Virus record (IMG/VR): IMGVR_UViG_3300035138_000093
Span: 1 to 28,889 of that record
DNA length: 28,889 bases
Reading direction: 5' to 3' (one strand)
From: a virus
In this document: in pieces, positions 1-14,989 of the stretch
Layout: every line of letters starts with the position of its first letter
Numbering within the stretch: the first letter of the stretch is position 1
Position numbers and translations under genes: made by a program
Notes under the pieces: generated by a model
Database searches by the model: none
Told to the model about the DNA's origin: nothing
Seen by the model: the letters and a program-made list of their open reading frames with translations, nothing else

Positions 1-130
1 AAGTATTTAAAAAACTTCCAACTTTTTCAATCTCATTCCCAGAAAAAATAAACTCCTTACAATTATTTAAACTATCTTCCTTTAATTTTTCGACTACTTC
101 AATCAGATTATTATTAAGTATTTTTAGCAT
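1..130 (-). CDS. Partial small protein, left operon (C-terminus outside window)
   Basis: An open frame on the minus strand starts with ATG at 130-128 and runs off the left edge after 43 codons (begins MLKILNNNLIEVVEKL). The start is set by a GGAGGGA ribosome site (complement at 135-141) and by the same two-hairpin leader module found before the other genes of this operon. The visible part is amphipathic and probably helical. No family is recognised. It is the most promoter-distal gene visible in the leftward operon. Confidence 0.6.
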   Translation of the reverse strand, partial: MLKILNNNLIEVVEKLKEDSLNNCKEFIFSGNEIEKVGSFLNT

Positions 131-204
131 TTTATCCCTCCATAGTTTAAAGGCATCTCGGCCTATTAAATAGAAGGATAGAGGGGTTATGAGCCCCAAT
201 ATCC
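131..204 (-). promoter_or_regulatory. Two-hairpin leader module M1
   Basis: Reading leftward, a first hairpin (176-204) follows the stop codon of the 307-aa gene. The second hairpin is AGGC/GCCT (151-154 with 161-164, 6-nt loop), then 9 nt, the ribosome site at 135-141, and the ATG. Same architecture as modules M2-M8. Confidence 0.6.
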
Positions 205-1128
205 TTAGTCTTCTAGTTGGTTTATTGATTCTTTTAGAACTTCTTGGTTTTCAGATGAAAAAAACTTTAGTTCTTCTGGTAAGTCTACTTCTACCGCTTC
301 TAAACGGTTTATTAACTGTTGAGTTGACAGGAATTCGATAGTTTCACAAGACCCTTGCCAGTCTGAATACTCAGCCCAAGCATAATTATCTTCGCTCCAT
401 TTAGCAAGCCTAACATGTGTATGCGCTTGCTGAGCGAAGTTCCAATTATGGCCATCCCATTCATCCATGTTTATCCAGTCCAACTGCTCAAACTGGAATT
501 CTAGTTCGCCATCAGGTTCTTCTATAAAATTGTCAACATGGTTATGACCATCCCAAGCACTATAATACCATTCGGTATCATACTGCAATAGGTCATCTTC
601 TTCAAACTGATTATCACTTAGATATAAAGCAGGTTTTCCTGCTTCTTCTATGTCAAACACACCATAGGCATGTTTGACTTTTGTGTTGAAGAATTCAGAC
701 AGCCATTCCGCGATATTATCTGAGAGCCACAATTCTTTTTCTTCTTTTAGTTCTTTGTATTTTTTGTTGACAGCTATTAGTTCTTCTTCTTTGAAACTAG
801 TTTCTCTGGTTTCAAAGATATAAGTGTCAGAATTGTCCCTGAAGTTAATAACTTCTTGGACTTCCGATTTTTCAACAATTGTGTAGTGTTCTATGTGGTC
901 TTCATACAGAGGTTTGACCAGCAGGTAAGTTGTTCGATTATTAATTATGAAGTCCATAGCATCTTTAATACTATCCCTTATACCTTTTTCTGCATCATGT
1001 TCTTCTAGTACTTTGTTCAATATTTCTTCTATTTCTTTATCTGTCAATTTTACAGTTGGAAAGTTGTCCTTCCTAACTTGTTCTACATCATCCTGATTCC
1101 AGGAAATATTAATTTCATATTTATACAT
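205..1128 (-). CDS. Acidic tryptophan-rich hypothetical protein (307 aa)
   Basis: Unrecognised protein and the largest of the left operon. ATG at 1128-1126 follows a GGAGGGA site (1135-1141). It opens with MYKYEI, resembling the MYKYNAI and YYKYNAI openings of two other proteins in the operon, so its N-terminus may be related to them. A lysine/glutamate-rich helical stretch spans about residues 114-150. The second half is rich in Trp, Asp and Glu and repeats the pentapeptide WDGHN at residues 192-196 and 224-228. The strong negative charge would fit a protein-binding or DNA-mimic role, as in several phage anti-defence proteins, but that is only a guess. No signal peptide or membrane segment is seen. 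Confidence 0.75.
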   Translation of the reverse strand: MYKYEINISWNQDDVEQVRKDNFPTVKLTDKEIEEILNKVLEEHDAEKGIRDSIKDAMDFIINNRTTYLLVKPLYEDHIEHYTIVEKSEVQEVINFRDNSDTYIFETRETSFKEEELIAVNKKYKELKEEKELWLSDNIAEWLSEFFNTKVKHAYGVFDIEEAGKPALYLSDNQFEEDDLLQYDTEWYYSAWDGHNHVDNFIEEPDGELEFQFEQLDWINMDEWDGHNWNFAQQAHTHVRLAKWSEDNYAWAEYSDWQGSCETIEFLSTQQLINRLEAVEVDLPEELKFFSSENQEVLKESINQLED

Positions 1129-1199
1129 GATTTATCCCTCCAATTGCGTTTTTCCTCGCCAGGAATTTAAGGCTAATAGGGCTGTTATACCCTTATTAG
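1129..1199 (-). promoter_or_regulatory. Two-hairpin leader module M2
   Basis: The first hairpin (1172-1200, a GCTAATA outer stem with a GGG/CCC inner stem) overlaps the TAG stop of the upstream gene. The second hairpin is TTCCT/AGGAA with loop CGCC on the plus strand (1152-1165). A spacer of 10 nt leads to the ribosome site at 1135-1141. Confidence 0.65.
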
Positions 1200-1565
1200 C
1201 TAATCTTCTATTTTGAAGTTTTCTAAAAGTTTAATAGCAGAATTAATATTTTTTGTATCTGTTTCTTTGTAGTGGGCATTTAAAGTTTGTTTAAGTGATT
1301 CTAAATTTAATATTATTCTATTGAGTTGTACTTTGATGTTTTTTTCGCTTCTTATCAAAGTAAATTGTTTTTCTCCTATTTGGTCTATAATTTCTTTTTT
1401 TGAGGTTTTTACAAAACCTCTATTTATAATTTTGCCTTTTACAGCTTGATTCCAAATGTAATTGGTGCCTTGGATTTTTATTAGCCAAACTTTTTCGGAA
1501 TTGTATGTATGTGGTATTCTGAATATCTTTGTTCTATTATGCCTTTTTATTTTTGATTTTCTCAT
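1200..1565 (-). CDS. Basic hypothetical protein (121 aa)
   Basis: The frame is open further upstream (to 1592), but the ATG at 1565-1563 is preferred because it sits just after the GGAGGGA site (1570-1576), as in all sister genes. The N-terminus is strongly basic (MRKSKIKRHNRTKIFRIP), followed by a possible beta segment and then, from about residue 55, helical sequence with leucines in heptad-like spacing. A nucleic-acid-binding role would suit the basic start, but no known domain is recognised. Stop TAG lies at the edge of the hairpin of module M2. Confidence 0.7.
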   Translation of the reverse strand: MRKSKIKRHNRTKIFRIPHTYNSEKVWLIKIQGTNYIWNQAVKGKIINRGFVKTSKKEIIDQIGEKQFTLIRSEKNIKVQLNRIILNLESLKQTLNAHYKETDTKNINSAIKLLENFKIED

Positions 1566-1643
1566 AATATCCCTCCAATAGTTTAAAGCCATTTCAGGCT
1601 ATTAGATAAAGCTGTAAGGGTTGTTACACCCTATACAACATAA
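1566..1643 (-). promoter_or_regulatory. Two-hairpin leader module M3
   Basis: The first hairpin spans about 1611-1639 (GGGT/ACCC core). The second hairpin is AGCC/GGCT (1587-1590 with 1597-1600, 6-nt loop). A 10-nt spacer precedes the ribosome site at 1570-1576. Confidence 0.65.
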
Positions 1644-2174
1644 TTATTTCTCATTAGATATAAATAGTACATCATTTTCTAATTCATCAACATAGATATT
1701 AAAGACATAATTTTCATCTATGTTGAGCATTTCTATTTCTCCAGATTCTTGGTGATACCAATTGTACTTGCAAACGCTGTTACAGTATTTATATCTAAAG
1801 TAGGAATATTTCTCAAATATTTCTTCCATGTTGTGATGATATACTGTTAGAGACTCATTTCTTTTCAATAACTTCTGTGCATCTTCTATTAGTCCTGATA
1901 GCACAATCACAGTTTCTTGTTGATTTTCTAAATTTATTGATGGTACTGATATTAACAAATGATTATCAGTATTATTAATATTTACTTTGTCAGAAAAATC
2001 TCTGATTACAGTTATTTCTTTAACTTTTTTAAAACTAGTGTGCTGAAAAGCTAGTAATACAAGTTTAATTGTTGATTCATCAAACTTGTCTTTGCTCATG
2101 ATATTTTGTATCATTATAGACACAAGTTTTTTTATTTCGCTAAATTGCTCATCTTTTATAATTCTGTTACTCAT
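1644..2174 (-). CDS. Hypothetical protein (176 aa)
   Basis: ATG at 2174-2172 with ribosome site 2179-2185. The N-terminal half looks alpha-helical (residues about 5-50), then mixed alpha/beta. A cluster of aromatic residues and two cysteines (YKYCNSVCKYNWYH, about residues 129-142) is followed by an acidic C-terminus. The Cys-x3-Cys pair is not a complete zinc site. No family recognised. Middle gene of the leftward operon, separated from both neighbours by hairpin modules and not by overlap. Confidence 0.7.
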   Translation of the reverse strand: MSNRIIKDEQFSEIKKLVSIMIQNIMSKDKFDESTIKLVLLAFQHTSFKKVKEITVIRDFSDKVNINNTDNHLLISVPSINLENQQETVIVLSGLIEDAQKLLKRNESLTVYHHNMEEIFEKYSYFRYKYCNSVCKYNWYHQESGEIEMLNIDENYVFNIYVDELENDVLFISNEK

Positions 2175-2243
2175 AATATCCCTCCAGTGCGTTTACCCTC
2201 GCCAGGGAAATAGCGGTAATAGGGGTTTAACCCCTACTATTAC
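2175..2243 (-). promoter_or_regulatory. Two-hairpin leader module M4
   Basis: The first hairpin (2215-2244) has a GGGG/CCCC core extended by GGTAA/TTACC. The second hairpin is CCCT/AGGG with loop CGCC on the plus strand (2196-2207). A 10-nt spacer precedes the ribosome site at 2179-2185. Confidence 0.65.
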
Positions 2244-2738
2244 CTAAAATAATGCTATCATTGTGCCCATATCTGAGTATTTGTCTTCTGGTATTTCCCA
2301 GTCAGCTTTAGTATATTCTGGTAGCTTTATAAGGATATTAATACCTAGGCAATAGATTATGTCATCTACCACTTTTATAAATTCTATATCTGGAACTCCT
2401 AATCTTTCTGGACATATTTGATATCTGACACATCTTAATGCTTTATAAAGTGCTATTCTAGACAAAGGATGTACTAGTTTAAATTTGATTTCTGAGTATG
2501 GTTCATTGTCCTGGTATTGCACATTTACACTTCTGACATTTATATCGTGTAATTCTTGCAAAAGTTTTTGTATACCTCTATCAGTTTTAATATAATAATT
2601 TTTGTTATATTTTATTTTTAAAACATCTTTATTATTGTATCCCAATATAGCTATTCTATCTGTTTCCGAGGAGAATAGTATTTTTAACCCGCTAAATAAA
2701 GCGCACATATGTGTATTGTTAGCAACAAAACTTGACAT
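2244..2738 (-). CDS. Hypothetical protein (164 aa)
   Basis: ATG at 2738-2736 directly downstream of the ribosome site 2745-2751. Mixed alpha/beta composition with a basic tyrosine/lysine-rich patch near residues 37-55 and an arginine/cysteine segment (about 95-112). No recognised domain, signal peptide or membrane span. A 50-bp sequence beginning at its start codon (2736-2785) recurs exactly at 3362-3411, so its expression signals were duplicated with those of the neighbouring gene. Confidence 0.7.
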   Translation of the reverse strand: MSSFVANNTHMCALFSGLKILFSSETDRIAILGYNNKDVLKIKYNKNYYIKTDRGIQKLLQELHDINVRSVNVQYQDNEPYSEIKFKLVHPLSRIALYKALRCVRYQICPERLGVPDIEFIKVVDDIIYCLGINILIKLPEYTKADWEIPEDKYSDMGTMIALF

Positions 2739-2785
2739 TATAAATCCCTCCAGTACGTTTAAAGCCCGCCGGCTATTAGATAAAG
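2736..2785 (-). repeat. 50-bp exact direct repeat, copy 1
   Basis: Identical to 3362-3411. It covers the start codon, ribosome site and second hairpin of module M5. Exact identity over 50 bp in a region where the other modules differ points to recent duplication or gene conversion. Confidence 0.9.
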
Positions 2786-2812
2786 CTGCATGGGCTATTA
2801 CGCCCTATACAG
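2739..2812 (-). promoter_or_regulatory. Two-hairpin leader module M5
   Basis: First hairpin 2785-2813 (GCTG/CAGC outer stem, GGGC/GCCC inner stem) just after the TAG stop of the upstream gene. Second hairpin AGCC/GGCT with loop CGCC on the plus strand (2763-2774). An 11-nt spacer precedes the ribosome site at 2745-2751. Confidence 0.65.
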
Positions 2813-3364
2813 CTAGTATTTTAACCAATCATTTTTTAAGTAATCCCTATATTGTTTATTAGTTATGTTAATTTTACAACCTTTGTATAGACTTCTATAC
2901 ATTTTAGGTATTGCATCTGTACCACGGTATTCATCTTTGAAAAATAGGTTTTCACAGCCATTTAATAATAATATATAACCTTTTTTTCTTACTCCACTAG
3001 CTGTATATCCTGCGTCGACGTAGATTACAGCTTCATTTCTTTTTATTAAGTCTTCTTTTTTTATGGTTTTTTCTAGAAATAGGCCATCAATAAAACCAGA
3101 TAGTAATTGTTTGATACCATCACGGTCAATACCTTCTTTATGAGGGCCGTTGAAGAGATATATTTCGCCATAGCAGCTTATACAACTTCTATTATGTTTA
3201 TCTGTATATATGTTATTGAAAATTTTTGGTACAATTGCTTTTGTTAATGATTTAGTTTCTATTTTTGCTTTTGAGTCATCATAATATGCGGTTAGAAACA
3301 GTCTATTATTTTTTCTTATTTCTATTTTAATAGCATTATATTTGTAGTATTTTGATTTTTTCAT
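2813..3364 (-). CDS. Hypothetical protein, paralogue of the next gene upstream (183 aa)
   Basis: The open frame continues upstream to 3454, but the ATG at 3364-3362 is chosen because it follows the conserved ribosome site (3371-3377). The N-terminus (KYNAIKIEI) and a central stretch of about 45 residues ending in DLIKRNE line up with the 120-aa neighbour (KYNAIEIEV; ELIKYHD), so the two are probably diverged paralogues. This copy is basic and has an extra C-terminal region of about 70 residues. No known family recognised. Confidence 0.75.
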   Translation of the reverse strand: MKKSKYYKYNAIKIEIRKNNRLFLTAYYDDSKAKIETKSLTKAIVPKIFNNIYTDKHNRSCISCYGEIYLFNGPHKEGIDRDGIKQLLSGFIDGLFLEKTIKKEDLIKRNEAVIYVDAGYTASGVRKKGYILLLNGCENLFFKDEYRGTDAIPKMYRSLYKGCKINITNKQYRDYLKNDWLKY

Positions 3365-3411
3365 TATAAATCCCTCCAGTACGTTTAAAGCCCGCCGGCT
3401 ATTAGATAAAG
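3362..3411 (-). repeat. 50-bp exact direct repeat, copy 2
   Basis: Identical to 2736-2785. It covers the start codon, ribosome site and second hairpin of module M6. Confidence 0.9.
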
Positions 3412-3423
3412 TTGGAAAAGCTA
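3365..3423 (-). promoter_or_regulatory. Two-hairpin leader module M6
   Basis: The first hairpin (3411-3439) is a 12-bp stem with one bulged base, and the TAA stop of the upstream gene lies in its loop. The second hairpin is AGCC/GGCT with loop CGCC on the plus strand (3389-3400). An 11-nt spacer precedes the ribosome site at 3371-3377. Confidence 0.7.
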
Positions 3424-3786
3424 TTAAGCTTTTTCCAACATAGGGCAATACCAATCATGATATTTTATCAGCTCTTTCTCATTTTTATAGTCTATTTCAT
3501 AGAGAGTTAATGAATGGATACCGCCTGTCAGCAATTCATAGAGGTCTTTTTCGACCTCATTTGACATAGAATATCTTTGTTCGAATCGGTATATTTTACC
3601 GTTTTCTGACAACAAGTAGTTATAGCCATCATAATCACTGTATTGGTAGATATAATTACTACTCTCGTAGAAGTCTAAATATAAATCATTTAAGTCATTG
3701 TATTCTTCATAATGTTCATCAATATAAGCTTTTAATGTTAATTGTCTTGTTCCTACTTCTATTTCGATAGCATTATATTTATACAT
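3424..3786 (-). CDS. Acidic tyrosine-rich hypothetical protein (120 aa)
   Basis: ATG at 3786-3784 after the ribosome site 3790-3796; the longer frame to 3822 lacks this signal. Residues about 24-60 are extremely rich in Tyr, Asp and Glu. The N-terminus and the LTGGIHSL / ELIKYHD region match the 183-aa neighbour, so it is a paralogue that has become acidic. Its stop codon sits in the loop of the hairpin of module M6. Function unknown. A small acidic protein from an early-type operon could bind a host factor, but nothing in the sequence proves this. Confidence 0.75.
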   Translation of the reverse strand: MYKYNAIEIEVGTRQLTLKAYIDEHYEEYNDLNDLYLDFYESSNYIYQYSDYDGYNYLLSENGKIYRFEQRYSMSNEVEKDLYELLTGGIHSLTLYEIDYKNEKELIKYHDWYCPMLEKA

Positions 3787-3843
3787 AAATCCCTCCAATA
3801 GTTTAAGGCCATTACGGGCCATTAGATAGGGCCTGGAAGGGTA
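3787..3843 (-). promoter_or_regulatory. Two-hairpin leader module M7
   Basis: First hairpin 3833-3856 (AAGGGT/ACCCTT with the upstream TAA stop in its loop). Second hairpin GGCC/GGCC with a 6-nt loop (3807-3820). A 10-nt spacer precedes the ribosome site at 3790-3796. Confidence 0.65.
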
Positions 3844-4107
3844 TTAACCCTTTTCAGACAGTAGCAATTTTATGTCTTTTACAGCTTTTAAATGGCTGGA
3901 TAAGGCTTCATATAGAGCTATTATGTAACTTGTGTTCTGTTTGTCTAGATTTAATTGTATATACTGGTAATGTTTTTGAAATTTACTTTTTTTAAGTACT
4001 TTGTTATCTTTACTTATCAGAATTGTTTGTTCTATTCCGTCATATTTAAAATGTAGTATAGTACTTTGTTTTATTTCTTTTATAAGATTATTTAGTCTTA
4101 TTCTCAT
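3844..4107 (-). CDS. Hypothetical protein (87 aa), first gene of left operon
   Basis: ATG at 4107-4105 is preferred over the in-frame ATG at 4119 because the ribosome site (4111-4117) falls between them. The protein begins MRIRLNNLIKEIKQ, is basic in its first half and helical in its last 40 residues. No family recognised. It is the promoter-proximal gene, about 470 nt downstream of the predicted transcription start. Confidence 0.7.
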   Translation of the reverse strand: MRIRLNNLIKEIKQSTILHFKYDGIEQTILISKDNKVLKKSKFQKHYQYIQLNLDKQNTSYIIALYEALSSHLKAVKDIKLLLSEKG

Positions 4108-4138
4108 ATTTCCCTCCATATTTTAAAGTCCGTAGACT
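4108..4138 (-). promoter_or_regulatory. Second-hairpin leader module M8
   Basis: AGTC/GACT stem with a UACG tetraloop in the minus-strand RNA (4127-4130 with 4135-4138), 9 nt before the ribosome site 4111-4117. It keeps the module's geometry with different stem bases. Confidence 0.65.
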
Positions 4139-4144
4139 ATGATA

Positions 4145-4211
4145 ATACACGCCAGGGACTTGAACCCCGGTTTGGCCTGTTTACCTTCATGTAGCTACAT
4201 TAGAGCATGTA
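4145..4211 (-). other. Possible tRNA-like 3' domain in the left-operon leader
   Basis: In the minus-strand RNA a T-arm (CGGGG, loop TTCAAGT, CCCTG; complement 4153-4169) matches the tRNA B-box consensus and is followed by GCGTGTA, which can pair with TACATGC (complement 4205-4211) as a 7-bp acceptor with one G-U. The 35 nt between them are too short for normal D and anticodon arms. A competing hairpin (4194-4200 with 4207-4213) uses part of the acceptor. It may be a tRNA mimic or only a hairpin of the leader. Confidence 0.3.
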
Positions 4212-4416
4212 GCAGCTGTTATACTAGAATTATGTAGCTAGTATAACTTAGGTAGCATTTAATGTTTTGGAGGGAGGGATAACATACAAAGTACTCTATT
4301 TGTTGATAGTAGTTGTTAGCTACTACCTAAGTTTTATTATTAGTAGTGTTTGCAAAATGCATAACTTACTACTAAAGTAATAGTACTTTGTCTACCATAT
4401 ACAATTGTCAAAGAGC

Positions 4417-4444
4417 AATCAAAGAGTAGCAATCAAAGAGTAGC
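4417..4444. repeat. 14-bp tandem repeat in the leader
   Basis: Two exact copies of AATCAAAGAGTAGC, preceded by a partial third copy (TCAAAGAGC). Confidence 0.8.
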
Positions 4445-4582
4445 AAGATGTATCCAAGTTGTTAATTATTTCTACTACTAAGATAAGAGAGTAGCAGCAA
4501 TAATTATATAGAAGTAGCTTAGAGAGCTACTGTATAGAAATGAATTTTGAGGCTAGCGTTGTTGGTCGTTGCTGACATTAAC

Positions 4583-4611
4583 ATAATATAACGAAATGTA
4601 AAACATGTCAA
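4583..4611 (-). promoter_or_regulatory. Strong sigma70-type promoter of the left operon
   Basis: On the minus strand a consensus TTGACA (4611-4606), a 17-nt spacer, and TATTAT (4588-4583). Transcription would start near 4576 and run leftward through all eight genes. Confidence 0.8.
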
Positions 4612-4784
4612 GTGTTTTTATGAAAAAAATACAAAAAGTATTCAAAAGTAAGCTATGACAGGGATTGACCGCATAATAAAATGCTACCATAAAAAGGAAA
4701 TACAAGTAGTTTGATGGGTTTTTTCTCTATATGTGTAATTAAATGTAAATGTTTATGTTAGGGAAATACTTGGGAAATAATTAC

Positions 4785-5068
4785 ATTTGGAATCTGGTAA
4801 TTTTCCCGAATACCCATGGAATCAGCCTCTAAAGCTATCATAACCTAGTACTTGGAAGCTTATGAAGTAGTAGGAAGTAAAAGCATACAAACGTTTATTG
4901 GTGTTATCTGGTAATAAAGCTTAGTAATGAGTCTTATTCTATTACAGTATATGTATATATAAGGAAGATAACACCAATACCCATGGAGCACGCTAATAGC
5001 TTGAATATCAATGTGACACAATTACATTATGTCACATTCGAAATGTATACATATGTACATAATACCCT
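4785..5068. repeat. Repeat-rich stretch with inverted repeats and a recurring word
   Basis: No gene is seen in 4612-5270. TCTGGTAAT occurs near 4793 and 4907. AATACCCATGGA occurs near 4809 and 4976, with a variant AATACCCTGTGGA near 5060. A 14-bp perfect inverted repeat (TATTGGTGTTATCT, 4896-4909 with 4966-4979) encloses 56 nt. A 9-bp inverted repeat AATGTGACA/TGTCACATT (5010-5018 with 5030-5038, 11-nt gap) has the form of an operator, followed by the near-palindrome around 5042-5060. These could be protein-binding sites of a control or replication region. Confidence 0.5.
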
Positions 5069-5078
5069 GTGGAGGTAT

Positions 5079-5196
5079 GGAGGGTAGGCCTACCTGGCGG
5101 GCACTACGGTGTAACACTGTCTACAACGGCTTTTGGCGACTGCTACGCCTGTTAAGGCGTGTTACTAGTCACTTTCAGACTCTTACCCTACCCCCC
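5079..5196 (+). ncRNA. Candidate branched structured RNA (GC-rich block)
   Basis: A 9-of-10-bp outer stem (5079-5088 with 5187-5196) encloses two tight hairpins: ACGGTG/CACTGT with a 3-nt loop (5106-5120) and ACGCCT/AGGCGT with loop GTTA (5145-5160). The outer stem's left arm overlaps a 12-bp palindrome (5083-5094). A G-U pair in the first hairpin favours the plus strand as RNA, but the mismatch in the outer stem favours minus, so the strand is uncertain. The block is much richer in GC than its surroundings. A packaging site is an alternative. Confidence 0.4.
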
Positions 5197-5210
5197 TAGG
5201 GTATAGGAGT

Positions 5211-5232
5211 CCCGTTCCCCCCACACCCACCC
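5211..5232 (-). other. G-quadruplex motif
   Basis: The minus strand has G-runs of 3, 3, 6 and 3 separated by loops of 1, 3 and 3 nt (G3 at 5230-5232, G3 at 5226-5228, G6 at 5217-5222, G3 at 5211-5213). Another G6 and G3 lie a little further on (complement 5186-5196). This fits the usual intramolecular G4 pattern and stands out in AT-rich DNA. Confidence 0.55.
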
Positions 5233-5273
5233 ACCATCAACTCACACAACTTATAGATTTTTAAAATTTTTTA

Positions 5274-5282
5274 TGTTATAAT
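5274..5282 (+). promoter_or_regulatory. Extended -10 promoter
   Basis: TGTTATAAT is a consensus -10 with the TGn extension. The -35 is weak. Transcription would start near 5289 and end at the terminator 5336-5359, giving a transcript of about 70 nt. Confidence 0.45.
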
Positions 5283-5335
5283 TATAGAGTAAAAAAGTGA
5301 TTTAGGTTTAAATATTATAGTATAAACTATTCTCC

Positions 5336-5359
5336 GACCTTGTATAAGGTCTTTTTTTT
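5336..5359 (+). terminator. Rho-independent terminator
   Basis: Six-bp stem GACCTT/AAGGTC with a 4-nt loop, followed by eight T. Confidence 0.85.
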
Positions 5360-5370
5360 ATTTCCCGAAT

Positions 5371-5399
5371 TTGATAAAATAGTGGCAATAATTTATAAT
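5371..5399 (+). promoter_or_regulatory. Promoter of the tRNA-like transcript
   Basis: TTGATA (5371-5376), 17-nt spacer, consensus TATAAT (5394-5399). Start predicted near 5406. The unit ends at the terminator 5616-5654 and contains the tRNA-Lys-like gene plus a 10-bp stem (5485-5494 with 5518-5527) that abuts it. Confidence 0.65.
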
Positions 5400-5527
5400 A
5401 TAGCTAAATATAGAAAATAAAATATAAGTTAATTTAATTGAGTTTTTTCATTAGCTAAAAACGCACAAACTATATCCCTTGCAATTAAAACTCCAGATTC
5501 GCGCACTGATGTGATAAGGAGTTTTAA

Positions 5528-5598
5528 AGGTTCTTAGTATAAAGGGAGTACGGATGGCCTTTAACCATCAAATCAGGGTTCGATTCCCTGAGAGCCTA
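5528..5598 (+). tRNA. tRNA-Lys(UUU)-like gene with C at position 33
   Basis: A complete 71-nt cloverleaf: acceptor AGGTTCT/AGAGCCT (7 bp, one T-G), D-stem GTAT/GTAC with a GGG-containing loop, anticodon stem GATGG/CCATC with loop CCTTTAA, a 4-nt variable loop, and T-arm CAGGG/CCCTG with loop TTCGATT. The anticodon reads TTT (lysine), fitting the AAA-rich codon use. The base before the anticodon is C where U33 is nearly universal, so its activity in translation is doubtful. CCA is not encoded. A stem-loop ends directly at its 5' end and a terminator follows. Confidence 0.65.
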
Positions 5599-5615
5599 TC
5601 CGATACAAAAAAAGA

Positions 5616-5654
5616 GGCTTTTAAATTTTTGGGTAAAAAAGGCCCATTTTTTTT
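5616..5654 (+). terminator. Terminator after the tRNA-like gene
   Basis: GGCTTTT (5616-5622) pairs with AAAGGCC (5638-5644) with one T-G pair. A run of eight T follows (5647-5654). Confidence 0.65.
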
Positions 5655-5655
5655 G

Positions 5656-5682
5656 TTGACAATTTATAAAAATTATTATAAA
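5656..5682 (+). promoter_or_regulatory. Possible promoter of a short transcript
   Basis: Consensus TTGACA at 5656-5661 with TATAAA at 5677-5682, a short spacer of 15 nt. It lies directly after one terminator and about 200 nt before another. The resulting transcript of about 220 nt has no convincing gene. Confidence 0.35.
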
Positions 5683-5872
5683 GTATTTCTAGTGATTAAC
5701 ATTTTTTACTTATGGTATCCATGACAGGAATATTGGGATTTAGTGTTTACTTGAATTTATTACTATTTAGGATTTATAATGTTTTAGAATGATTTATCAA
5801 AAAAATTCATTGGGGTTTATAATGACATATTAATCTATTTAAAGTTGTTCATGAAATAATAATTTCTATATT

Positions 5873-5919
5873 ATTAATACTAAAAAAGAGCTTTTATAAG
5901 GCTCTTTTTTAGTATTAAT
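5873..5919. terminator. Bidirectional terminator, 19-bp perfect inverted repeat
   Basis: Arms 5873-5891 and 5901-5919 are perfectly complementary, with GAGC/GCTC at the centre flanked by A6 and T6, so it can stop transcripts from either side. Confidence 0.8.
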
Positions 5920-5948
5920 TTGACATTTTTTCTAAAAAATGATAATAT
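5920..5948 (+). promoter_or_regulatory. Strong sigma70-type promoter
   Basis: Consensus TTGACA (5920-5925), 17-nt spacer, TAATAT (5943-5948). Start near 5955, with no terminator before the small terminase gene, so it can feed the late operon. Confidence 0.75.
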
Positions 5949-6094
5949 AAATACGGTCGATGAGGGGGCTTTTGTCATTCCCCGAAATAACTAGAAATTA
6001 ACTAGTTAATTAATTTTTTAAATTTTTGAATATTTTATGAATTATCAAAGCACTACAATTGTTAGTTATTATATTTATTAAAGACACAAAAAAG

Positions 6095-6164
6095 TTAATA
6101 TGAAGAACTAAGTTTCAAGATTTGTAAAAAAATTAATATGAAGGACTAAGTTTCAAGATTTGTA
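6095..6164. repeat. 38-bp tandem repeat, two units
   Basis: The 32-bp core at 6095-6126 recurs at 6133-6164 with one difference (GAAGAAC versus GAAGGAC); the flanking A-rich spacer completes a 38-bp period. It lies between two promoters of the late operon. No gene is seen in 5955-6190. Confidence 0.8.
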
Positions 6165-6193
6165 GAATAAACTATAATAAAACAAAAGTAAAG

Positions 6194-6222
6194 TTGTCAA
6201 AAAACAAAAGAAGTGATAAAAT
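6194..6222 (+). promoter_or_regulatory. Promoter of the late operon
   Basis: TTGTCA (6194-6199), 17-nt spacer, TAAAAT (6217-6222). Start near 6230, about 10 nt before a GC-rich hairpin and some 315 nt before the small terminase gene. Confidence 0.7.
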
Positions 6223-6240
6223 ATACATAGGAGTTTAAGC

Positions 6241-6279
6241 GGCCGGGGTAGTTTGTAAATAAGTAAATATATCCCGGCC
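6241..6279 (+). promoter_or_regulatory. GC-rich hairpin at the 5' end of the late leader
   Basis: Ten-bp stem GGCCGGGGTA/TATCCCGGCC (one G-T pair) with a 19-nt AT-rich loop. No T-run follows, so it is not a terminator. Its place near the transcript start suggests mRNA protection or an RNA signal. Confidence 0.7.
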
Positions 6280-6302
6280 TTAGTGATATAGGTTTAAAGA
6301 GT

Positions 6303-6348
6303 CTTTTGTAAGTATCTTTTTGGTTTGTCGACCGATTACTTACAAAGG
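6303..6348 (+). promoter_or_regulatory. Long stem-loop in the late leader
   Basis: A 12-bp stem (6303-6314 with 6337-6348, two T-G or G-T pairs at the base) with an inner GGT/ACC stem (6322-6324 with 6331-6333). Confidence 0.65.
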
Positions 6349-6358
6349 GCCATTTCAC

Positions 6359-6448
6359 GGCTGGGTAGTTCAACTGGTAGAACGTCCAAGTAACTTTGTA
6401 TTTCTATACAAGGTCTTGATGTAGGGGGTTCGAGTCCTCCTCTGGCCT
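6359..6448 (+). ncRNA. tRNA-like structure with abnormal anticodon arm
   Basis: Acceptor GGCTGGG/TCTGGCC (7 bp with G-T pairs), canonical D-arm GTTC/GAAC around AACTGGTA, and T-arm GGGGG/CCTCC with loop TTCGAGT all have normal tRNA spacing. Between D- and T-arms there are about 17 extra nt: instead of a 5-bp stem and 7-nt loop there is a long imperfect arm (6384-6390 with 6415-6420, then an 8-bp stem 6394-6401 with 6406-6413 capped by TTCT). No usable anticodon loop is seen. It sits in the late-operon leader and may act as a processing or regulatory element and not as a decoder. Confidence 0.5.
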
Positions 6449-6506
6449 AATAAAAAAGCTCGTGTTTATGTTTAAAATCAAAGCTAATGTATGATCATAA
6501 GCACTA

Positions 6507-6530
6507 TATAGGGCTCAGAAGAGCCCTATA
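6507..6530 (+). promoter_or_regulatory. Hairpin just upstream of the small terminase ribosome site
   Basis: Perfect 10-bp stem TATAGGGCTC/GAGCCCTATA with an AGAA tetraloop. The ribosome site (AAGGAA, 6533-6538) follows unpaired. Confidence 0.75.
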
Positions 6531-6546
6531 ATAAGGAAGTGATAGT

Positions 6547-7041
6547 ATGGATAATAAGTATGAATTATACAAAGTATCCGAAGTTACTTACGAAGACTGT
6601 ATAAAGCCTTTTCTAGATGATTTAATCCAGTTACGAATACAAGGGTTGTCTCCCTTGGAAATATGCCAATTTTTATCAGATAAAAACAAAATACAAATAC
6701 CAGTTTTCTTACTGTTTGTATATATAGAGAAGTATCCTGACCTTTATGAGGCATGGTATGCTTCTAATTTAATGAGAGTGCATGAGTTAGAAGAAACAGC
6801 TTATAGGATAGCTAAAGGTTATAGCTATGATACTTCTGAGGATATCTACCAGAAGAATAAAGATACTGGTGAGAATGAGTTAGTAGGTACAAAAGTTAAT
6901 CACAGCTATGTAAGGCCTGATGCGAAGATGGTATTAGAGGTGCTTAAGGTACTTCATGGTAATAGGTGGTCTGGAAAGAATACTGATGACCGTAAAATTA
7001 TAGTAGAATTTCCAAAGGACCTGGACGAATTTGCAGGTTGA
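6547..7041 (+). CDS. terS: Terminase small subunit
   Basis: DNA-recognition subunit of the packaging motor, expected to bind the packaging site and recruit the large terminase to the portal. The 164-aa protein has a helical N-terminal half, consistent with a helix-turn-helix (about residues 25-60), then the motif-like stretch LEETAYRIAKGYSYDTSED and a C-terminal MVLEVLKVLHGNRWSGK segment as in small terminases of Gram-positive phages. The ATG at 6547 has an AAGGAA site at 6533-6538. Position first in the late operon and one gene before the large subunit supports the call. It is not overlapped with the next gene: 480 nt of structured non-coding sequence intervene. Confidence 0.75.
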   Translation: MDNKYELYKVSEVTYEDCIKPFLDDLIQLRIQGLSPLEICQFLSDKNKIQIPVFLLFVYIEKYPDLYEAWYASNLMRVHELEETAYRIAKGYSYDTSEDIYQKNKDTGENELVGTKVNHSYVRPDAKMVLEVLKVLHGNRWSGKNTDDRKIIVEFPKDLDEFAG

Positions 7042-7522: not shown

Positions 7523-8893
7523 TTGATATTCCGCTTAGACGGAGTAATACAGCCTAAGCAACGTTTGTTTTTTCTTGCGCGGACTAAATACATAGCTTAT
7601 GGAGGTGCTAGAGGTGGTGGCAAGTCATGGGCAATGCGAACTAAGTTTGTATTATTAGCACTTAAGTTCACAAAGCTTAAGATACTTCTTCTCAGAAGGA
7701 CCTTTCCAGAGCTAGAAGCGAATCATATAGCTCCTTTATTATCACTTCTTGAGGGAGTAGCCCAGTATGTAGTATCCAAAAAACAATTTGTATTTCCGAA
7801 TGGAAGTTTTATAAAACTTGGATATTGCAAGAACGAAAAAGATGCTTATCAATATCAAGGGCATGAATATGATGTCATTGGTTTTGAAGAAGCAACCTTA
7901 TTTACTGAAAAACAACTCGATTTTATAAAAACATGTCTGAGAAATGTTAGGACTGATTTTAGTCCACGAATCTACTATACATGTAACCCAGGTGGGGTAG
8001 GGCACTATTATATAAAAAGGTTATTTATAGATAGGGATTTTACTGAGGATGAAGATCCGAGTGATTATACCTTTATTCCTGCATCTATTTATGATAATCA
8101 AGTGCTACTTACTCGTGATCCATCATATATGAAAGTTCTTAATTCTATGCCAGAAGAGCTTAGAAGAGCTCATAGGGATGGTGACTGGGACGCTTTATCA
8201 GGGCAATATTTCCGAGAATTTAGAAGGGAAATGCATGTGATAGAGCCTTTTGATATACCTAAGGAATGGTTTAGATATGTAACAATAGACTATGGTCTGG
8301 ATTGTCTAGCTGCTTATTGGATAGCAGTTGACTACATGGGTTTATGTTATGTATACAGAGAGATACATGAAGAAGGTCTTATAATTTCTAATGCAGCTCA
8401 ATTAGTTTTGGATAATTGCAGAGGTGAAATGATAGACCAATTTTTTATACCTCCAGACATGAAGTCATCAAGACAGGAAACTGGTAAATCAGCATATCAG
8501 TTATTTATAGAAAATGGTATAACTGGTGTAATAGCTAAGAATCAGAGAGTTGATGGCTGGTTGTGCATGAAAGAGTATTTAAAGCCAAAGAAGAATGGTG
8601 AGATGCTTGTACCAACACTTAGATTTTTTAAGACATGTAAGAAGTTAGTCAAGCATATACCATTATTACAGAGGGATGATAAAGACCCTAATGATGTAGC
8701 TCAAGAACCGCATGAGTTTACACATGGTCCAGATGCTATAAGGTATTTCTGTTCTTCATGGATATCAACTCCGGAGTATGACAGGGAGTATATATCAGGT
8801 ACTTATTATTATGGAGAGTTAAGAATGAAAGGGTATTCAATTATGGAGATAAGGAAATTAGAGCTTGATGGGCATATAAGGGTAATATATTAA
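7523..8893 (+). CDS. terL: Terminase large subunit (ATPase-nuclease)
   Basis: Motor that pumps DNA into the capsid and cuts the concatemer. The 456-aa protein has a Walker A GGARGGGKS (residues 27-35), Walker B ending in VIGFEE (118-123), coupling motif TCNPGG (153-158), and a C-terminal RNase H-like nuclease starting at TIDYGLD (about 250) with a late aspartate in HGPDAIRYF near the C-terminus. The start is an inferred TTG: an in-frame TAG ends at 7522 and no ATG lies before Walker A. An ATG immediately followed by that TAG overlaps the previous peptide's stop (TGATG), so translation is probably coupled. Length is normal for the family. Confidence 0.95.
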   Translation: MIFRLDGVIQPKQRLFFLARTKYIAYGGARGGGKSWAMRTKFVLLALKFTKLKILLLRRTFPELEANHIAPLLSLLEGVAQYVVSKKQFVFPNGSFIKLGYCKNEKDAYQYQGHEYDVIGFEEATLFTEKQLDFIKTCLRNVRTDFSPRIYYTCNPGGVGHYYIKRLFIDRDFTEDEDPSDYTFIPASIYDNQVLLTRDPSYMKVLNSMPEELRRAHRDGDWDALSGQYFREFRREMHVIEPFDIPKEWFRYVTIDYGLDCLAAYWIAVDYMGLCYVYREIHEEGLIISNAAQLVLDNCRGEMIDQFFIPPDMKSSRQETGKSAYQLFIENGITGVIAKNQRVDGWLCMKEYLKPKKNGEMLVPTLRFFKTCKKLVKHIPLLQRDDKDPNDVAQEPHEFTHGPDAIRYFCSSWISTPEYDREYISGTYYYGELRMKGYSIMEIRKLELDGHIRVIY

Positions 8894-8907: not shown

Positions 8908-9936
8908 ATGAGTCCAAAGTATAAGCTGTTATTGTTAGACAAGCCACATGATGAAGTAATGAAAAACTACGAAGATTCTTTTGACATAGTCAATTGGTTT
9001 GAACAAAATAGTGTAGAAGTAATATATACACATCTCACAAAAATAGCATGGGATAAGTATCCTAATCTTAAGTGCGTTCTGTGTCCTGTAACTTCTGTTA
9101 ATCATCTAGAACCTATACCAGAAAAAATAAAAGTTATATATCTTAGGGATAAGCAAGTATTATATGACTCAGTATGGTCTACTGCTGAATGGACTGTTAC
9201 GGCTATGCTTAATCTTATGAGAGCTAATAGAGATGAGCTTACAAGAAAAAAGGTAGGCTTTATTGGATATGGCCGGGTTGGTCAGCAGGTAGCTAATCTC
9301 TTAAAAGGCTTTGACTGCGATATTATGTATATGGATGAGTGTTATCCGATATACAATAATAACAGTATAATACAGGCTAAAGAGACTTTAGCAGATAGTA
9401 TTTATAGTCATGCTGATATTATAACAGTTCATCTATCAGAAAATAATAATACTAAAGGTTTAGTAGGTGCAGAAGCTTTTCAGAAAATGGGTTGGAGAGA
9501 AAACTTGCCTTACTTTATAAACTCATCGAGGTCAAGCATAGTAGATGCTAATAGTCTTATACTTGCTTTAACAACTAACACACTAAAAGGCTGTGCTTTA
9601 GATGTTATAGACACTTATGACTATGTTCAGAAGAAGCAACTCTATGAGCTCAGGTCAGAGATGGGTAATAGGCTAATAATAACACCACATATAGCGGGTA
9701 ATTGTGATAACTCAAGGGTATTTACGGATACGCATGTACTAACAAGATTTTTTGATGAGTTAACATTGTTTGAGACTAAGTTAGAGATAGAAGGGCTCAA
9801 ACAATGTTATAGTTATAATTGTTCAATATGCAATAAAGTTATTGTAACAGAAGAAGAACTTCCAGAAGATATTAAAGTAATATGTAATACTTGTTTTGAG
9901 TTAGAAGATAATAAAAAATGGGAGGGGTTTAAATGA
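8908..9936 (+). CDS. D-2-hydroxyacid dehydrogenase with C-terminal zinc ribbon
   Basis: NAD-dependent oxidoreductase of the PGDH/D-2-hydroxyacid dehydrogenase family (342 aa). Seen: NAD-binding GYGRVG (residues 120-125), catalytic Arg208 in INSSRSSIVD, and His261 in TPHIAG. The usual catalytic Glu of LDVFE is Asp235 (LDVIDT). Beyond the normal end a short domain carries Cys305-x2-Cys308 and Cys326-x2-Cys329, a zinc ribbon not typical of the family. Excellent ribosome site (AAAGGAGG) 15 nt after large terminase. The end overlaps the next gene by 4 nt. Such dehydrogenases occur near NeuA/NeuB genes in some bacterial surface-sugar clusters, so it probably supplies or alters the sugar made by the genes that follow. 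Confidence 0.8.
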   Translation: MSPKYKLLLLDKPHDEVMKNYEDSFDIVNWFEQNSVEVIYTHLTKIAWDKYPNLKCVLCPVTSVNHLEPIPEKIKVIYLRDKQVLYDSVWSTAEWTVTAMLNLMRANRDELTRKKVGFIGYGRVGQQVANLLKGFDCDIMYMDECYPIYNNNSIIQAKETLADSIYSHADIITVHLSENNNTKGLVGAEAFQKMGWRENLPYFINSSRSSIVDANSLILALTTNTLKGCALDVIDTYDYVQKKQLYELRSEMGNRLIITPHIAGNCDNSRVFTDTHVLTRFFDELTLFETKLEIEGLKQCYSYNCSICNKVIVTEEELPEDIKVICNTCFELEDNKKWEGFK

Positions 9937-10166
9937 AAAGTCCTTGGAGTGAAAAAGTTACACCTATAGGTGCTAAAAGTCAAAGTGAACCTGAATTTTT
10001 TATTATGCAGGTTAAAGTGTTTAGAATGGAAGACTATAAAAGCACTGAGGCTTTTGAAAGAGATATAAATAATTTCATTTATAAGAAGCAAAAGGAACAC
10101 AAGCCAAACCAGATAACTTCTATGCCAGGTGAGGTACATATTCTATATGGAAGTGATTTGTCATGA
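9933..10166 (+). CDS. Small hypothetical protein (77 aa)
   Basis: Unrecognised. ATGA overlap with the dehydrogenase stop, ribosome site GGGAGGGG just upstream, and a 4-nt overlap with the NeuB-like gene show that it belongs to the sugar operon. The sequence is hydrophilic with a possible helix (residues 30-55: EDYKSTEAFERDINNF) and no cysteines, signal or membrane span. It could be a subunit or modulator of one of the neighbouring enzymes, but there is no direct evidence. Confidence 0.7.
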   Translation: MKSPWSEKVTPIGAKSQSEPEFFIMQVKVFRMEDYKSTEAFERDINNFIYKKQKEHKPNQITSMPGEVHILYGSDLS

Positions 10167-10903
10167 AATTTATAGCTGATGCATGTTGTAATCACTTAGG
10201 TAATAAAATGATTATAAGTCGTATGATTAAGTTAGCTAGTGCGGCTAATATGGATTATATAAAGTTTCAGCTATATGACCATAAAAAGCTTAATCAAAGT
10301 TATAGTAAGCATGATGATGAGTATAAGGAATTCTTAAGAACATGCGAAATTAGCTTGGGCACATTAAGTTATATAATACTTAAATGTAGCAAAGCTAATA
10401 TAACACCTATGTTTACTATTTTTACTCCTGATAGATTAGAAATGATTAAACAATTTCCAATAAAATTCCCACTTAAAATAGCATCTTGTGATGCTAATAA
10501 GCCATGGGTTGAAGATGTTGTTAAATTTAATAAAGGTGAGATGGTTGTAATATCATTAGGCATGAGTAGTTATGAAGAAAAGCAAAAGTTATTTAAAAAG
10601 TATGAAATAAATCCAGATGTTAGGTTTTTAAGCTGTTTGTCGCAATATCCTTGTTATCCTGGGGATATAGACTGGGATGAAGTTAAAAAACTTAATGGGT
10701 TTTCATGTCATACTAAGGATTTAGCTGTATTTAGAAAACTTATTCAAAGAGGAATAGATTTGGTAGAATTTCATTATACATTAAGCAGGAATCTTCCAGG
10801 TAAAGACCATAGTTTTTCCCTGGACTATGAAGATTTATGTTATATAAATAATATGAGAGGAGCTGTAGAGGATGAGCAGCGATATAAAAATAGGTTCGTC
10901 TAA
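10163..10903 (+). CDS. neuB: NeuB-type N-acetylneuraminate (nonulosonate) synthase, barrel domain only
   Basis: Family reaction: condensation of an N-acetyl hexosamine such as ManNAc with phosphoenolpyruvate to a nine-carbon 2-keto sugar acid. The 246-aa protein covers the TIM barrel: Asn10-His11, Lys34 in IKFQ, Lys105 in LKIASC, the STGM-like SLGM (131-134), His183 in FSCHT, Glu202 and His204 in VEFHYT, and SRNLPGKDH (208-216). The glutamate of the first motif (AExGxNH) is Asp6. The C-terminal antifreeze-like (SAF) domain of about 60-70 residues, which in the family supplies an arginine to the neighbouring subunit's active site, is absent. The gene overlaps the next one by 32 nt, so its 3' end is not a sequencing edge. 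Confidence 0.85.
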   Translation: MKFIADACCNHLGNKMIISRMIKLASAANMDYIKFQLYDHKKLNQSYSKHDDEYKEFLRTCEISLGTLSYIILKCSKANITPMFTIFTPDRLEMIKQFPIKFPLKIASCDANKPWVEDVVKFNKGEMVVISLGMSSYEEKQKLFKKYEINPDVRFLSCLSQYPCYPGDIDWDEVKKLNGFSCHTKDLAVFRKLIQRGIDLVEFHYTLSRNLPGKDHSFSLDYEDLCYINNMRGAVEDEQRYKNRFV

Positions 10904-12149
10904 TTTAACACCAAAAGATAAGTACAGTCTTTTTAAAGAGATAACACCAACTAAAGAAATAGTAAGAGAAGTTAAAGAGAAAGAGAATAAGATATTAAAA
11001 GAAAGGTGCCCTGAATATGTTGAGGAATTAAATAAACTTGTAAGCAAAGATGAGCAATTATTCTTAGATATAGCTAAGTATAAAAAGAATAAAGTTTGCT
11101 GCATAGTTGGATTTGCTCCTAGTTGGAATGAAGCTCCATATGAGAGGAAAGATGTTGACTTTTGGGGCTTGAATGAGCTGTATGGATATCTCAATACTTT
11201 ACCAGAAAAGCCAGATTTTAACCTCTGGTTTGAGGTTCATGATATTAAGAATAGTCCTTCAAAACAGAAACAGTATCACCAGGATTTTCTTAAAACTACA
11301 AATATACCAGTAGTAACTAAGACTCATTATGATGAGTATCCAACTACTATACCTTATCCAGTTGATTATATCATAGATAAAGTAAAAGAAGGGTTCATAA
11401 TAAAAGAGAATACAACAGCTTTTGAGGATTATTCAAACTCTATATCTTGGATGATAGCTCTTGCTATTTATATGGGATATGAAGAAATATATGTATATGG
11501 AGTAGATATGGCTCAGGAAACTGAGTATTTCTTCCAGAGATCCAGCTGTAATTTTTTCATGGGGTTAGCAATTGGGAAAGGTATAAAATTATTAATACCA
11601 GCTTCTTGTAGGTTATGTGCTGGTTCAGGCAATCTTTATGGTTTCAGATCCGATAATGCAGGAAGGTTCAGGACAAAAAAGAAAATTGAAGCCCAGGAAG
11701 AAACAATAGTAAGAGTACATCAAAGGAATCTTGAACTTAAGTTCTACCAGGATAGGGCAAATAAAGAATTTAGTGATAATACTCTTAAAGCAGATTTAGA
11801 TGTAAAAATGATAGAGCAAGAACTTAATCAGGCTAAGACTGCTAAAGTAGTAGCACAAAATTTACTTAGATGTTTTGCCGATATGCCAACAGATTTTAAT
11901 GAAATTAACAAGCAAAAGCCAGGGCTTGTTAATAGGTATCAGATCGAAGTAGAAAATGCTTCAAGGAAGATAGAAGAGTTGAAGAAAGAACTCAAGCAGA
12001 TACAAGATAAACAGTTTAGAAGAGAGCGAGACAATTATGTTGCTAATGGAGTATACAATGATGAAATGGAGATAAACAAAAATCAAATAAATATGCTTAA
12101 AGGTCATGTTGCTGAAAATAATGACTTACTTAATAAAAATCTTGTATGA
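10872..12149 (+). CDS. Rossmann-like protein resembling GT42/DUF115 glycosyltransferases, with coiled coil
   Basis: Putative sugar transferase (425 aa). Residues 76-103 (VCCIVGFAPSW, then WGLNELY) match the nucleotide-sugar-binding start of the GT42 sialyltransferase/DUF115 superfamily in style, and residues 191-212 (SWMIALAIYMGYEEIYVYG) match its second conserved block, where CstII-type enzymes have an SGVYMCAVAIALGYKEIY-like sequence. The C-terminal 150 residues are charged and predicted coiled coil. Related VGFAPS...WGLN proteins of unknown role are known in other phages. Its place between NeuB and NeuC homologues makes transfer of the CMP-activated sugar a reasonable role. The similarity is by eye only. 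Start ATG 10872 has a GAGAGGAG site inside the neuB-like gene. Confidence 0.5.
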   Translation: MSSDIKIGSSNLTPKDKYSLFKEITPTKEIVREVKEKENKILKERCPEYVEELNKLVSKDEQLFLDIAKYKKNKVCCIVGFAPSWNEAPYERKDVDFWGLNELYGYLNTLPEKPDFNLWFEVHDIKNSPSKQKQYHQDFLKTTNIPVVTKTHYDEYPTTIPYPVDYIIDKVKEGFIIKENTTAFEDYSNSISWMIALAIYMGYEEIYVYGVDMAQETEYFFQRSSCNFFMGLAIGKGIKLLIPASCRLCAGSGNLYGFRSDNAGRFRTKKKIEAQEETIVRVHQRNLELKFYQDRANKEFSDNTLKADLDVKMIEQELNQAKTAKVVAQNLLRCFADMPTDFNEINKQKPGLVNRYQIEVENASRKIEELKKELKQIQDKQFRRERDNYVANGVYNDEMEINKNQINMLKGHVAENNDLLNKNLV

Positions 12150-12166
12150 TATAGGTGGTGAGTTCT

Positions 12167-13908: not shown

Positions 13909-13909
13909 C

Positions 13910-14797: not shown

Positions 14798-14989
14798 ATG
14801 TTCCTTAAATGCTGTAATTGTAGTAAGGTACTTCTAGACGACATCCTTGAAAGTGTTACAATAGATTGTAGTACAAATATTAATAATTTTAAAGAAAGCA
14901 CACCAAACACTGTACTTGAGATAAAGTGTAGGAGATGTGGTATGTATAATACTATATATCAAGGAGGTGTTGCTGATGTTAAAATATGA
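14798..14989 (+). CDS. Com-like zinc-ribbon protein (63 aa)
   Basis: Cys5-x2-Cys8 and Cys44-x2-Cys47 frame a small zinc ribbon (FLKCCNCSKVLL, then LEIKCRRCGMYNTI). This layout resembles the phage Mu Com protein, an RNA-binding activator of translation of a DNA-modification gene, but family membership is only suggested. ATG 14798 with GGGAAGGA (14782-14789) is preferred over the longer frame from 14735, which lacks a ribosome site. It overlaps the portal start by 14 nt, so a role in portal or sugar-gene translation is possible. Confidence 0.6.
   Translation: MFLKCCNCSKVLLDDILESVTIDCSTNINNFKESTPNTVLEIKCRRCGMYNTIYQGGVADVKI

Follow-up and report, generated by a model that had tools for sequence, protein, structure and literature searches.

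Eight covarying two-hairpin leaders in one phage operon, with a second hairpin that recurs before scaffold genes of other tailed phages

The left operon of a tailed phage, carried on the minus strand (positions 1-4117) of the linear virus record IMGVR_UViG_3300035138_000093 from IMG/VR, raises the question of why each of its eight start codons should be preceded by the same ribosome site, GGAGGGA, and by a hairpin whose stem differs between copies. The whole record of 28,889 nucleotides (nt) was analysed and is called the window here. We found that a two-hairpin leader of 73-79 nt, ending in the invariant TGGAGGGA, heads all eight minus-strand genes (g0 to g7), that its stems change sequence yet keep their pairing, and that its second hairpin recurs directly before scaffolding genes of other phages. 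It is probably a leader of the scaffold-gene type that acts in cis on translation initiation.

A search of both strands for GGAGGGA-N(2-6)-ATG returned eight sites on the minus strand and none on the plus strand, and the reversed pattern used as a control returned none; the plus-strand genes have varied Shine-Dalgarno (SD) sites, often of the AGGAGGT type. The initial annotation had placed a hairpin upstream of an identical GGAGGGA at each start of the operon, and under one rule a hairpin was indeed present at all eight GGAGG starts of the left operon, compared with 1 of the 12 other GGAGG starts in the window (Fisher p = 7e-5). Each leader consists of a first hairpin (H1), an AU-rich linker of 5-10 nt, a second hairpin (H2), another linker, GGAGGGA (preceded by T in every leader), 3-6 nt, and ATG. 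The linker from H2 to the SD measures 7-9 nt in this anatomy, and the hairpin ends 9-11 nt before the SD in the per-start test.

The lower stem of H1 spans 6-8 positions and has a different sequence in each copy. Its 5' side carries a bulge, which is A in g1, g2, g3, g5, and g6, GUA in g4, and AACC in g0, and g7 has an internal loop in place of the bulge. The upper stem is mostly of the GGGN/NCCC type, four G-U pairs occur in the H1 stems, and UAA lies within the loop in seven of the eight copies. A hairpin of this kind had been proposed at every preceding stop codon, often with the stop in its loop. The stop of the preceding gene does lie in the loop in g1 and g2, but it touches the foot of the 5' arm in g3, g4, g6, and g7 and lies 4 nt upstream of H1 in g5; g0 is operon-proximal and therefore has an H1 that follows no open reading frame, an exception to the proposal. 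An extra in-frame UAA is found in the H1 loop of g3, g6, and g7. We take the g0 H1 (4152-4170, minus strand) to resemble a tRNA T-arm (GGGGTTCAAGTCCC) and the g7 H1 loop (GGGGCTCATAACCCC; 174-206, minus strand) to resemble an initiator-tRNA anticodon arm, and either resemblance may be due to chance.

H2 has a stem of 4 base pairs (bp), followed in most copies by a U.U mismatch and an A-U pair. Its stem and loop letters had been read correctly at the outset: the loop is GGCG in g2, g3, g4, and g6, UACG in g0, and six nt long in g1, g5, and g7. The GGCG loops go together with the linker AAACG and the six-nt loops with AAACU. Although there are eight leaders, as claimed, g2 and g3 share the same 50 nt through linker, H2, SD, and ATG, and therefore only seven distinct H2 modules exist; both H1 arms nevertheless differ between the two. 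The presence of this identical leader ahead of unrelated genes shows that it moves, or is homogenised, independently of the gene. The features of the operon are as follows, with E values from the covariance model R2 described below.

4583-4611 (-): candidate sigma-70 promoter of the operon, TTGACA-17-TATTAT, a consensus match only (11 of 12), such sites being no more numerous than in shuffles
4147-4180 (-): g0 H1, T-arm-like, bulge AACC, upper stem GGGG/UCCC
4125-4140 (-): g0 H2, AGUC-UACG-GACU (R2 match, E 0.019)
4111-4117 (-): g0 SD, GGAGGGA
3844-4107 (-): g0, orphan gene, 87 amino acids (aa)
3833-3857 (-): g1 H1, with the g0 stop UAA in the loop
3805-3822 (-): g1 H2, GGCC-CGUAAU-GGCC (R2 match)
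3790-3796 (-): g1 SD, GGAGGGA
3424-3786 (-): g1, orphan gene, 120 aa, distant paralogue of g2
3412-3438 (-): g2 H1, with the g1 stop UAA in the loop
3387-3402 (-): g2 H2, AGCC-GGCG-GGCU, linker UUUAAACGU (R2 match, E 3e-7)
3371-3377 (-): g2 SD, GGAGGGA
2813-3364 (-): g2, orphan gene, 183 aa
2784-2814 (-): g3 H1, bulged A, loop GUAAUA
2761-2776 (-): g3 H2, AGCC-GGCG-GGCU (R2 match, E 3e-7)
2745-2751 (-): g3 SD, GGAGGGA
2244-2738 (-): g3, orphan gene, 164 aa
2215-2244 (-): g4 H1, bulge GUA, GGGG/CCCC
2194-2209 (-): g4 H2, CCCU-GGCG-AGGG, linker UAAACGC
2179-2185 (-): g4 SD, GGAGGGA
1644-2174 (-): g4, orphan gene, 176 aa
1611-1639 (-): g5 H1, loop GUAACA
1585-1602 (-): g5 H2, AGCC-UGAAAU-GGCU (R2 match, E 0.039)
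1570-1576 (-): g5 SD, GGAGGGA
1200-1565 (-): g5, orphan gene, 121 aa
1172-1200 (-): g6 H1, bulged A, loop AUAACA
1151-1166 (-): g6 H2, UUCCU-GGCG-AGGAA, linker AAACGC
1135-1141 (-): g6 SD, GGAGGGA
205-1128 (-): g6, orphan gene, 307 aa, N-terminus like phrog_10258 (function unknown)
174-206 (-): g7 H1, GGGG-CUCAUAA-CCCC, internal loop UU/UC
149-166 (-): g7 H2, AGGC-CGAGAU-GCCU (R2 match, E 0.15)
135-141 (-): g7 SD, GGAGGGA
2-130 (-): g7 gene start, which runs off the contig

The summed H2 stem score over the eight sites was 89; when the 36-nt upstream pieces were dinucleotide-shuffled 3000 times, the mean was 14 and the highest score 63. For H1, taken in 45-nt windows, the minimum free energy gave z values of -2.4 to -4.7 against dinucleotide shuffles (mean z -3.3; each p <= 0.021), confirming that the hairpin at the preceding stops is real. 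Covariation was scored on a MAFFT alignment of the leaders (A2), which was built without structure. In this alignment 83.6% of cells were paired and 11 of 16 pairs changed on both sides, with 23 cells changed in this way; none of 500 shuffles matched either the paired cells or the covariation score, and pairing fell to 32-51% when the 3' partners were slid by 1-3 columns. Furthermore, RNAalifold recovered both hairpins unprompted, bulge included. The leader copies share a common descent, so significance is inflated in the shuffle tests, and less so in the slid control and in the comparison of close pairs. Between g1 and g5 (36 of 40 positions identical, 90%), H2 shows a compensatory change from A-U to G-C, and between g3 and g5 (36 of 41, 88%), H1 shows one from C-G to U-A (GGGC/GCCC to GGGU/ACCC). 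A covariance model of the eight leaders (R1) found exactly these eight in the window (E <= 1e-9; next match 0.055). An Rfam scan of the window placed tRNAs alone above gathering, and the leader matched no family.

Outside the window, searches with the whole leader or its linker yielded little. The linker pattern TTTAAAC..TGGAGGGA gave 113 stretches and the pattern GGCG..AAACGYA..TGGAGGG gave 14 viral and 34 genomic stretches, in both cases with single, structure-less, or chance copies alone; relatives of the phage's TerL (about 50% identical) are without such a leader. When R1 was run on 391 Clostridia genomes, the best matches that were checked preceded ordinary chromosomal-type genes and look like chance, and one weaker match (L230) proved real, with the stem AGUC/GACU and a scaffold gene downstream. 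An H2-plus-linker pattern derived from the window retrieved 27 stretches from IMG/VR, three of which (L249, L252, and L257) have a four-nt G..G loop followed by an SD and a start codon. The recurring form is a 4-bp covarying stem, a G[A/G]CG loop, a UUUAAACG linker, an SD, and a start. BLAST with L249 led to Bacillus phage phi18-2, mycobacteriophage FF47, and a faecal phage, and later to Muddy and 8UZL; in each of them AGCC-GACG-GGCU-(U)UAAACG or a close form stands directly before the scaffolding gene, as identified by annotation, Pfam, or PHROGs (annotated in phi18-2, Muddy, 8UZL, and FF47). Further matches in phi18-2, away from the scaffold gene, were rejected as not being the element. L252 contains the element twice; the additional copy, CGUC-GGCG-GACG-GUAAACGC, had not been demanded by the search pattern, and its stem is unrelated to the first. 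The two GRCG leaders of L252 (2172-2601) lie 400 nt apart before small orphan genes, making this a second multi-copy phage, and the L257 copy also precedes an orphan gene. An SD and a start follow the pattern in 12 of 17 cases, compared with 1/4, 1/3, 1/9, 1/5, and 0/3 for control loops and linkers.

A second model, R2, comprises ten sequences from outside the window and leaves out the full SD. Its six best places in the window were the leaders of g2, g3, g0, g5, g7, and g1, and g6 came ninth. In the 391 Clostridia genomes it found more examples with different stems, including L321-L323 and L326-L329. The proteins after L320, L322, L326, L327, L328, and L329 (n = 6) have a PHROG scaffold match or are close homologues of one, L321 and L323 (n = 2) precede similar acidic, scaffold-like proteins, and L324 and L325 precede other genes. 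No requirement to meet the window-derived pattern applied to L230, L252b, or the Clostridia copies. The H2 element does occur upstream of other genes in other phages, and neither of the two outcomes that had been named in advance as refuting the structure came about. Across 22 distinct leaders, three of the four stem pairs change on both sides (19 such cells), a score reached by 0 of 500 shuffles. Since shuffles match neither this score nor that of the eight leaders, the initial annotation was right to propose a selected RNA structure with true covariation.

A definition consisting of a 4-bp stem, a GRCG loop, (N)0-3 AAACG, an SD, and a start is satisfied by g2, g3, g4, and g6; g0, g1, g5, and g7 are variants with other loops that are still among the top matches of R2. 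Within the GRCG class, the loop ends in two bases that could pair with the two following the linker AAA. This complementarity is present in 21 of 25 leaders, with just one compensatory change, from C-G to A-U in L257.

Several scaffold loci of Clostridia show related arrangements. The leaders of L322, L323, and L316 have two GACG-type hairpins in tandem, with an AAACGG-like linker after each, and beside the tandem-GACG locus L322 a skipping-rope RNA match (RF02924, above gathering) lies at 1665-1822 on the minus strand. Many of the loci L286-L309 combine a hairpin with a downstream AUAAAAA-type linker and SD, below any Rfam family (for example L295, L300, L307, L308, and L309).

To our knowledge, phage leader RNAs of scaffold genes have been catalogued (GP20-b) without an assigned function. 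The GP20-b family (RF03003) is cis-regulatory and lies before GP20 scaffold genes (PF06810), and its model matches scaffold-gene leaders in Clostridia prophages. Like the leaders of the window, it has two hairpins, a GUAA-containing loop in the first, and, after the second, an A-rich linker leading to an SD; the same gene class lies downstream of the window H2's GRCG relatives. The window leader differs in having eight copies, which stand before non-scaffold genes. The GP20-b covariance model had no match in the window at E <= 10, and none at the gathering score, and it failed to match the GRCG scaffold leaders as well. Rfam also includes the GP20-a family, from the same survey, which turned up in none of the scans of the window and its relatives. 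L249 joins a GP20-like first element (UUUAUGACGUUAAACUG, common to the scaffold leader L295) to a GRCG hairpin, a combination suggesting that the two forms belong to a single leader superfamily. The closest start-associated arrays are the start-associated sequences (SAS/ESAS) of cluster K mycobacteriophages, with similar motifs in Microbacterium clusters EF/EG (PMC3203893, PMC7302621). They too occur in many copies of one orientation before non-structural genes, with an over-conserved sequence at the position of the ribosome-binding site (RBS) and an inverted repeat just upstream. However, Pope et al. reported that ESAS repeats generally give no support for RNA pairing (PMC3203893, PMC7302621), whereas the stems of the window keep pairing as their sequence changes and contain no conserved 17-bp inverted repeat. 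The SAS 13-mer GGGATAGGAGCCC was absent from the window RBSs, with 3-7 mismatches (best 3 in 13).

The proteins of the left operon are orphans. Only g1 (3424-3786) and g2 (2813-3364), both on the minus strand, are distant paralogues (phmmer 2e-5), and the remaining proteins have no clear mutual relation. No relatives were found in IMG/VR with the g2, g3, g4, and g6 proteins or in GenBank phages with the g2 and g6 proteins, no scaffold match was found among the genes downstream of the window leaders, and no RNA-binding protein was identified in the operon.

Taken together, the sequence comparisons make it probable that the leader acts in cis on translation initiation and belongs to the scaffold-gene type. 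The proposed mechanism is that each left-operon gene has its own cis-acting RNA leader, which would control initiation on that gene. H1, with the stop codon at or in it, ends the preceding cistron and would isolate the cistrons from one another. Immediately 5' of the SD, H2 may form a small H-type pseudoknot, in which the CG of the loop pairs with the CG of the linker and the A-rich strand crosses. The reader of this pseudoknot would be a conserved one, most likely the 30S ribosome or a ribosomal protein, and initiation would thereby be freed from the upstream cistron. Because GRCG and AAACG are common to phages of Bacillus, Mycobacterium, and Clostridia, such a conserved reader is at least as likely as a phage protein. 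The leader type would normally be single, before the scaffold gene, and would have been multiplied here along an orphan-gene operon. Judged separately, reading by the ribosome is a tentative proposal and an operator for a protein regulator a rather doubtful one; the cis-acting leader is probable on the two combined.

Several observations weigh against this interpretation. R2 is not wholly independent of the window, because three of its sources (L249, L252a, and L257) were picked with the window-derived pattern. The CG/CG rule of loop and linker is broken by class A (g1, g5, and g7) and by g0. In silico, the g4 leader prefers another fold to its H2 (P 0.04). No leader of this type precedes the scaffold candidate of the window itself (18903-19733). 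Among the PF06810 loci of Clostridia, the 30 with the top scores all lack the GRCG form, which is therefore one of several scaffold leaders. The mean unpaired probability of the SD was 0.42, compared with 0.35 in shuffles, without a consistent trend; simple sequestration of the SD was therefore rejected, and no fold-level switch is evident, since accessibility was on average no lower than in shuffles.

In line with the single phage-encoded regulator suggested by the initial annotation, the leaders might instead form an operator array for one RNA-binding translational repressor of the phage that shuts the operon off gene by gene, an idea that we regard as rather doubtful. In T4, gp43 and RegA work through hairpins or RBSs in their targets. 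Here the distance to a strong SD is fixed, the sequence is conserved beyond anti-SD pairing (TGGAGGGA in 8/8), and the bulged-A H1 and the short loops resemble protein-binding hairpins. A passage of PMC5744158 cites Wyckoff and Casjens (1985) for autoregulation of the P22 scaffold, and T4 gp43 binds a UAAC-loop hairpin upstream of its own SD (PMC3014915). The T4 control sites (the gp43 hairpin operator, the gp32 pseudoknot, RegA, and RegB; PMC3014915) are like the window leaders in having a hairpin or pseudoknot upstream of a phage RBS and, in early genes, a GGAG-type SD, but they are single sites or unstructured motifs, and the RegB consensus GGAGRAYARAA is absent from all eight leaders. The recurrence of the element across phages of different host phyla with unlike proteins, and the failure to identify an RNA-binding protein in the operon, count against a repressor.

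An unlikely alternative is mRNA punctuation, in which H1 would protect the upstream 3' end and H2 the next 5' end, while an RNase cuts the AU-rich linker (UUUAUCUAAUA) to give single-gene mRNAs, as RNase III does in T7. Each internal junction does have an H1 at the stop codon and an H2 5-10 nt later, with an AU-rich linker between them, but H2 is just 4 bp, the scaffold-gene relatives often have no comparable H1, and the conserved loops, the match of loop and linker, and the invariant SD context would be left unexplained. It is still less probable that the leaders are DNA-level joints of a gene-cassette array, integron-like or a recombination hotspot, with the hairpins as single-stranded DNA structures, as the initial annotation had entertained. 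Integron attC arrays are likewise structure-conserved, sequence-variable imperfect repeats between tandem genes, the 50-nt identical leader stands before the unrelated g2 and g3, and the operon proteins are unrelated orphans except g1 and g2. However, the attC core sites GTTRRRY / RYYYAAC are absent from seven of the eight modules, no integrase was identified in the window, no relatives were found of the operon proteins tested, the G-U pairs of H1 are an RNA feature, and before scaffold genes elsewhere the element occurs singly. That the hairpins arose by chance in AT-rich intergenic DNA, or are plain intrinsic terminators, is scarcely credible: purine-rich SDs and pyrimidine-rich upstream regions favour some pairing, but chance is already refuted by the covariation and is also countered by the stem-score and H1 shuffles, the contrast of 8/8 with 1/12, and the R2 ranking. 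None of the internal H1 hairpins is scored as a terminator; the sole terminator-like site on the minus strand in 1-7000 is the operon-proximal g0 H1.

The rest of the window is of low GC content (28-41% over the window) and encodes TerL (7523-8893) and a portal (14937-17030). Because TerL relatives of 50-52% identity are present in Clostridia genomes, the host is probably a member of the Clostridia. Between TerL and portal, 8908-14629 (+) is a nonulosonic/sialic acid-type cassette, an unusual cargo within a head-gene cluster, with a 2-hydroxyacid dehydrogenase domain, NeuB, a UDP-GlcNAc 2-epimerase, a cytidylyltransferase, and a weak CST-I sialyltransferase match. Next to the divergent region lie a gene for tRNA-Lys(UUU) and a tRNA-like match of lower score (34.5 bits), at 5528-5598 and 6359-6448 (+), and an intergenic 38-bp tandem direct repeat (95% identical; 6088-6163, +) lies ahead of the rightward genes. 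A second IMG/VR contig from another record (L122/L211-L212, 30,802 bp) is 100% identical to window 6265-28889; it extends the sequence by about 8 kb on the right, where a 1603-aa protein is encoded, and stops short of the left operon, covering the right genome part alone.

The cis-acting leader would place this operon within a broader pattern. It is possible, though we hold this with reserve, that the GRCG-AAACG hairpin represents a widespread, as yet uncatalogued type of minimal pseudoknot leader in tailed phages, which normally guards the scaffold gene and here serves an operon-wide regulon of eight nearly all unrelated genes answering one signal. If so, the signal could be, for example, the state of capsid assembly or of the ribosome. 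The form with a GRCG loop and an AAACG linker, matched by no Rfam family here, occurs in phages of Bacillus, Mycobacterium, and Clostridia. With eight repeats in one phage, a single operon offers covariation and loop classes of natural origin as well as unrelated genes downstream, and the element can therefore be tested apart from the scaffold protein. The leader has the appearance of an RNA module that can be reused to set protein synthesis for each gene separately.

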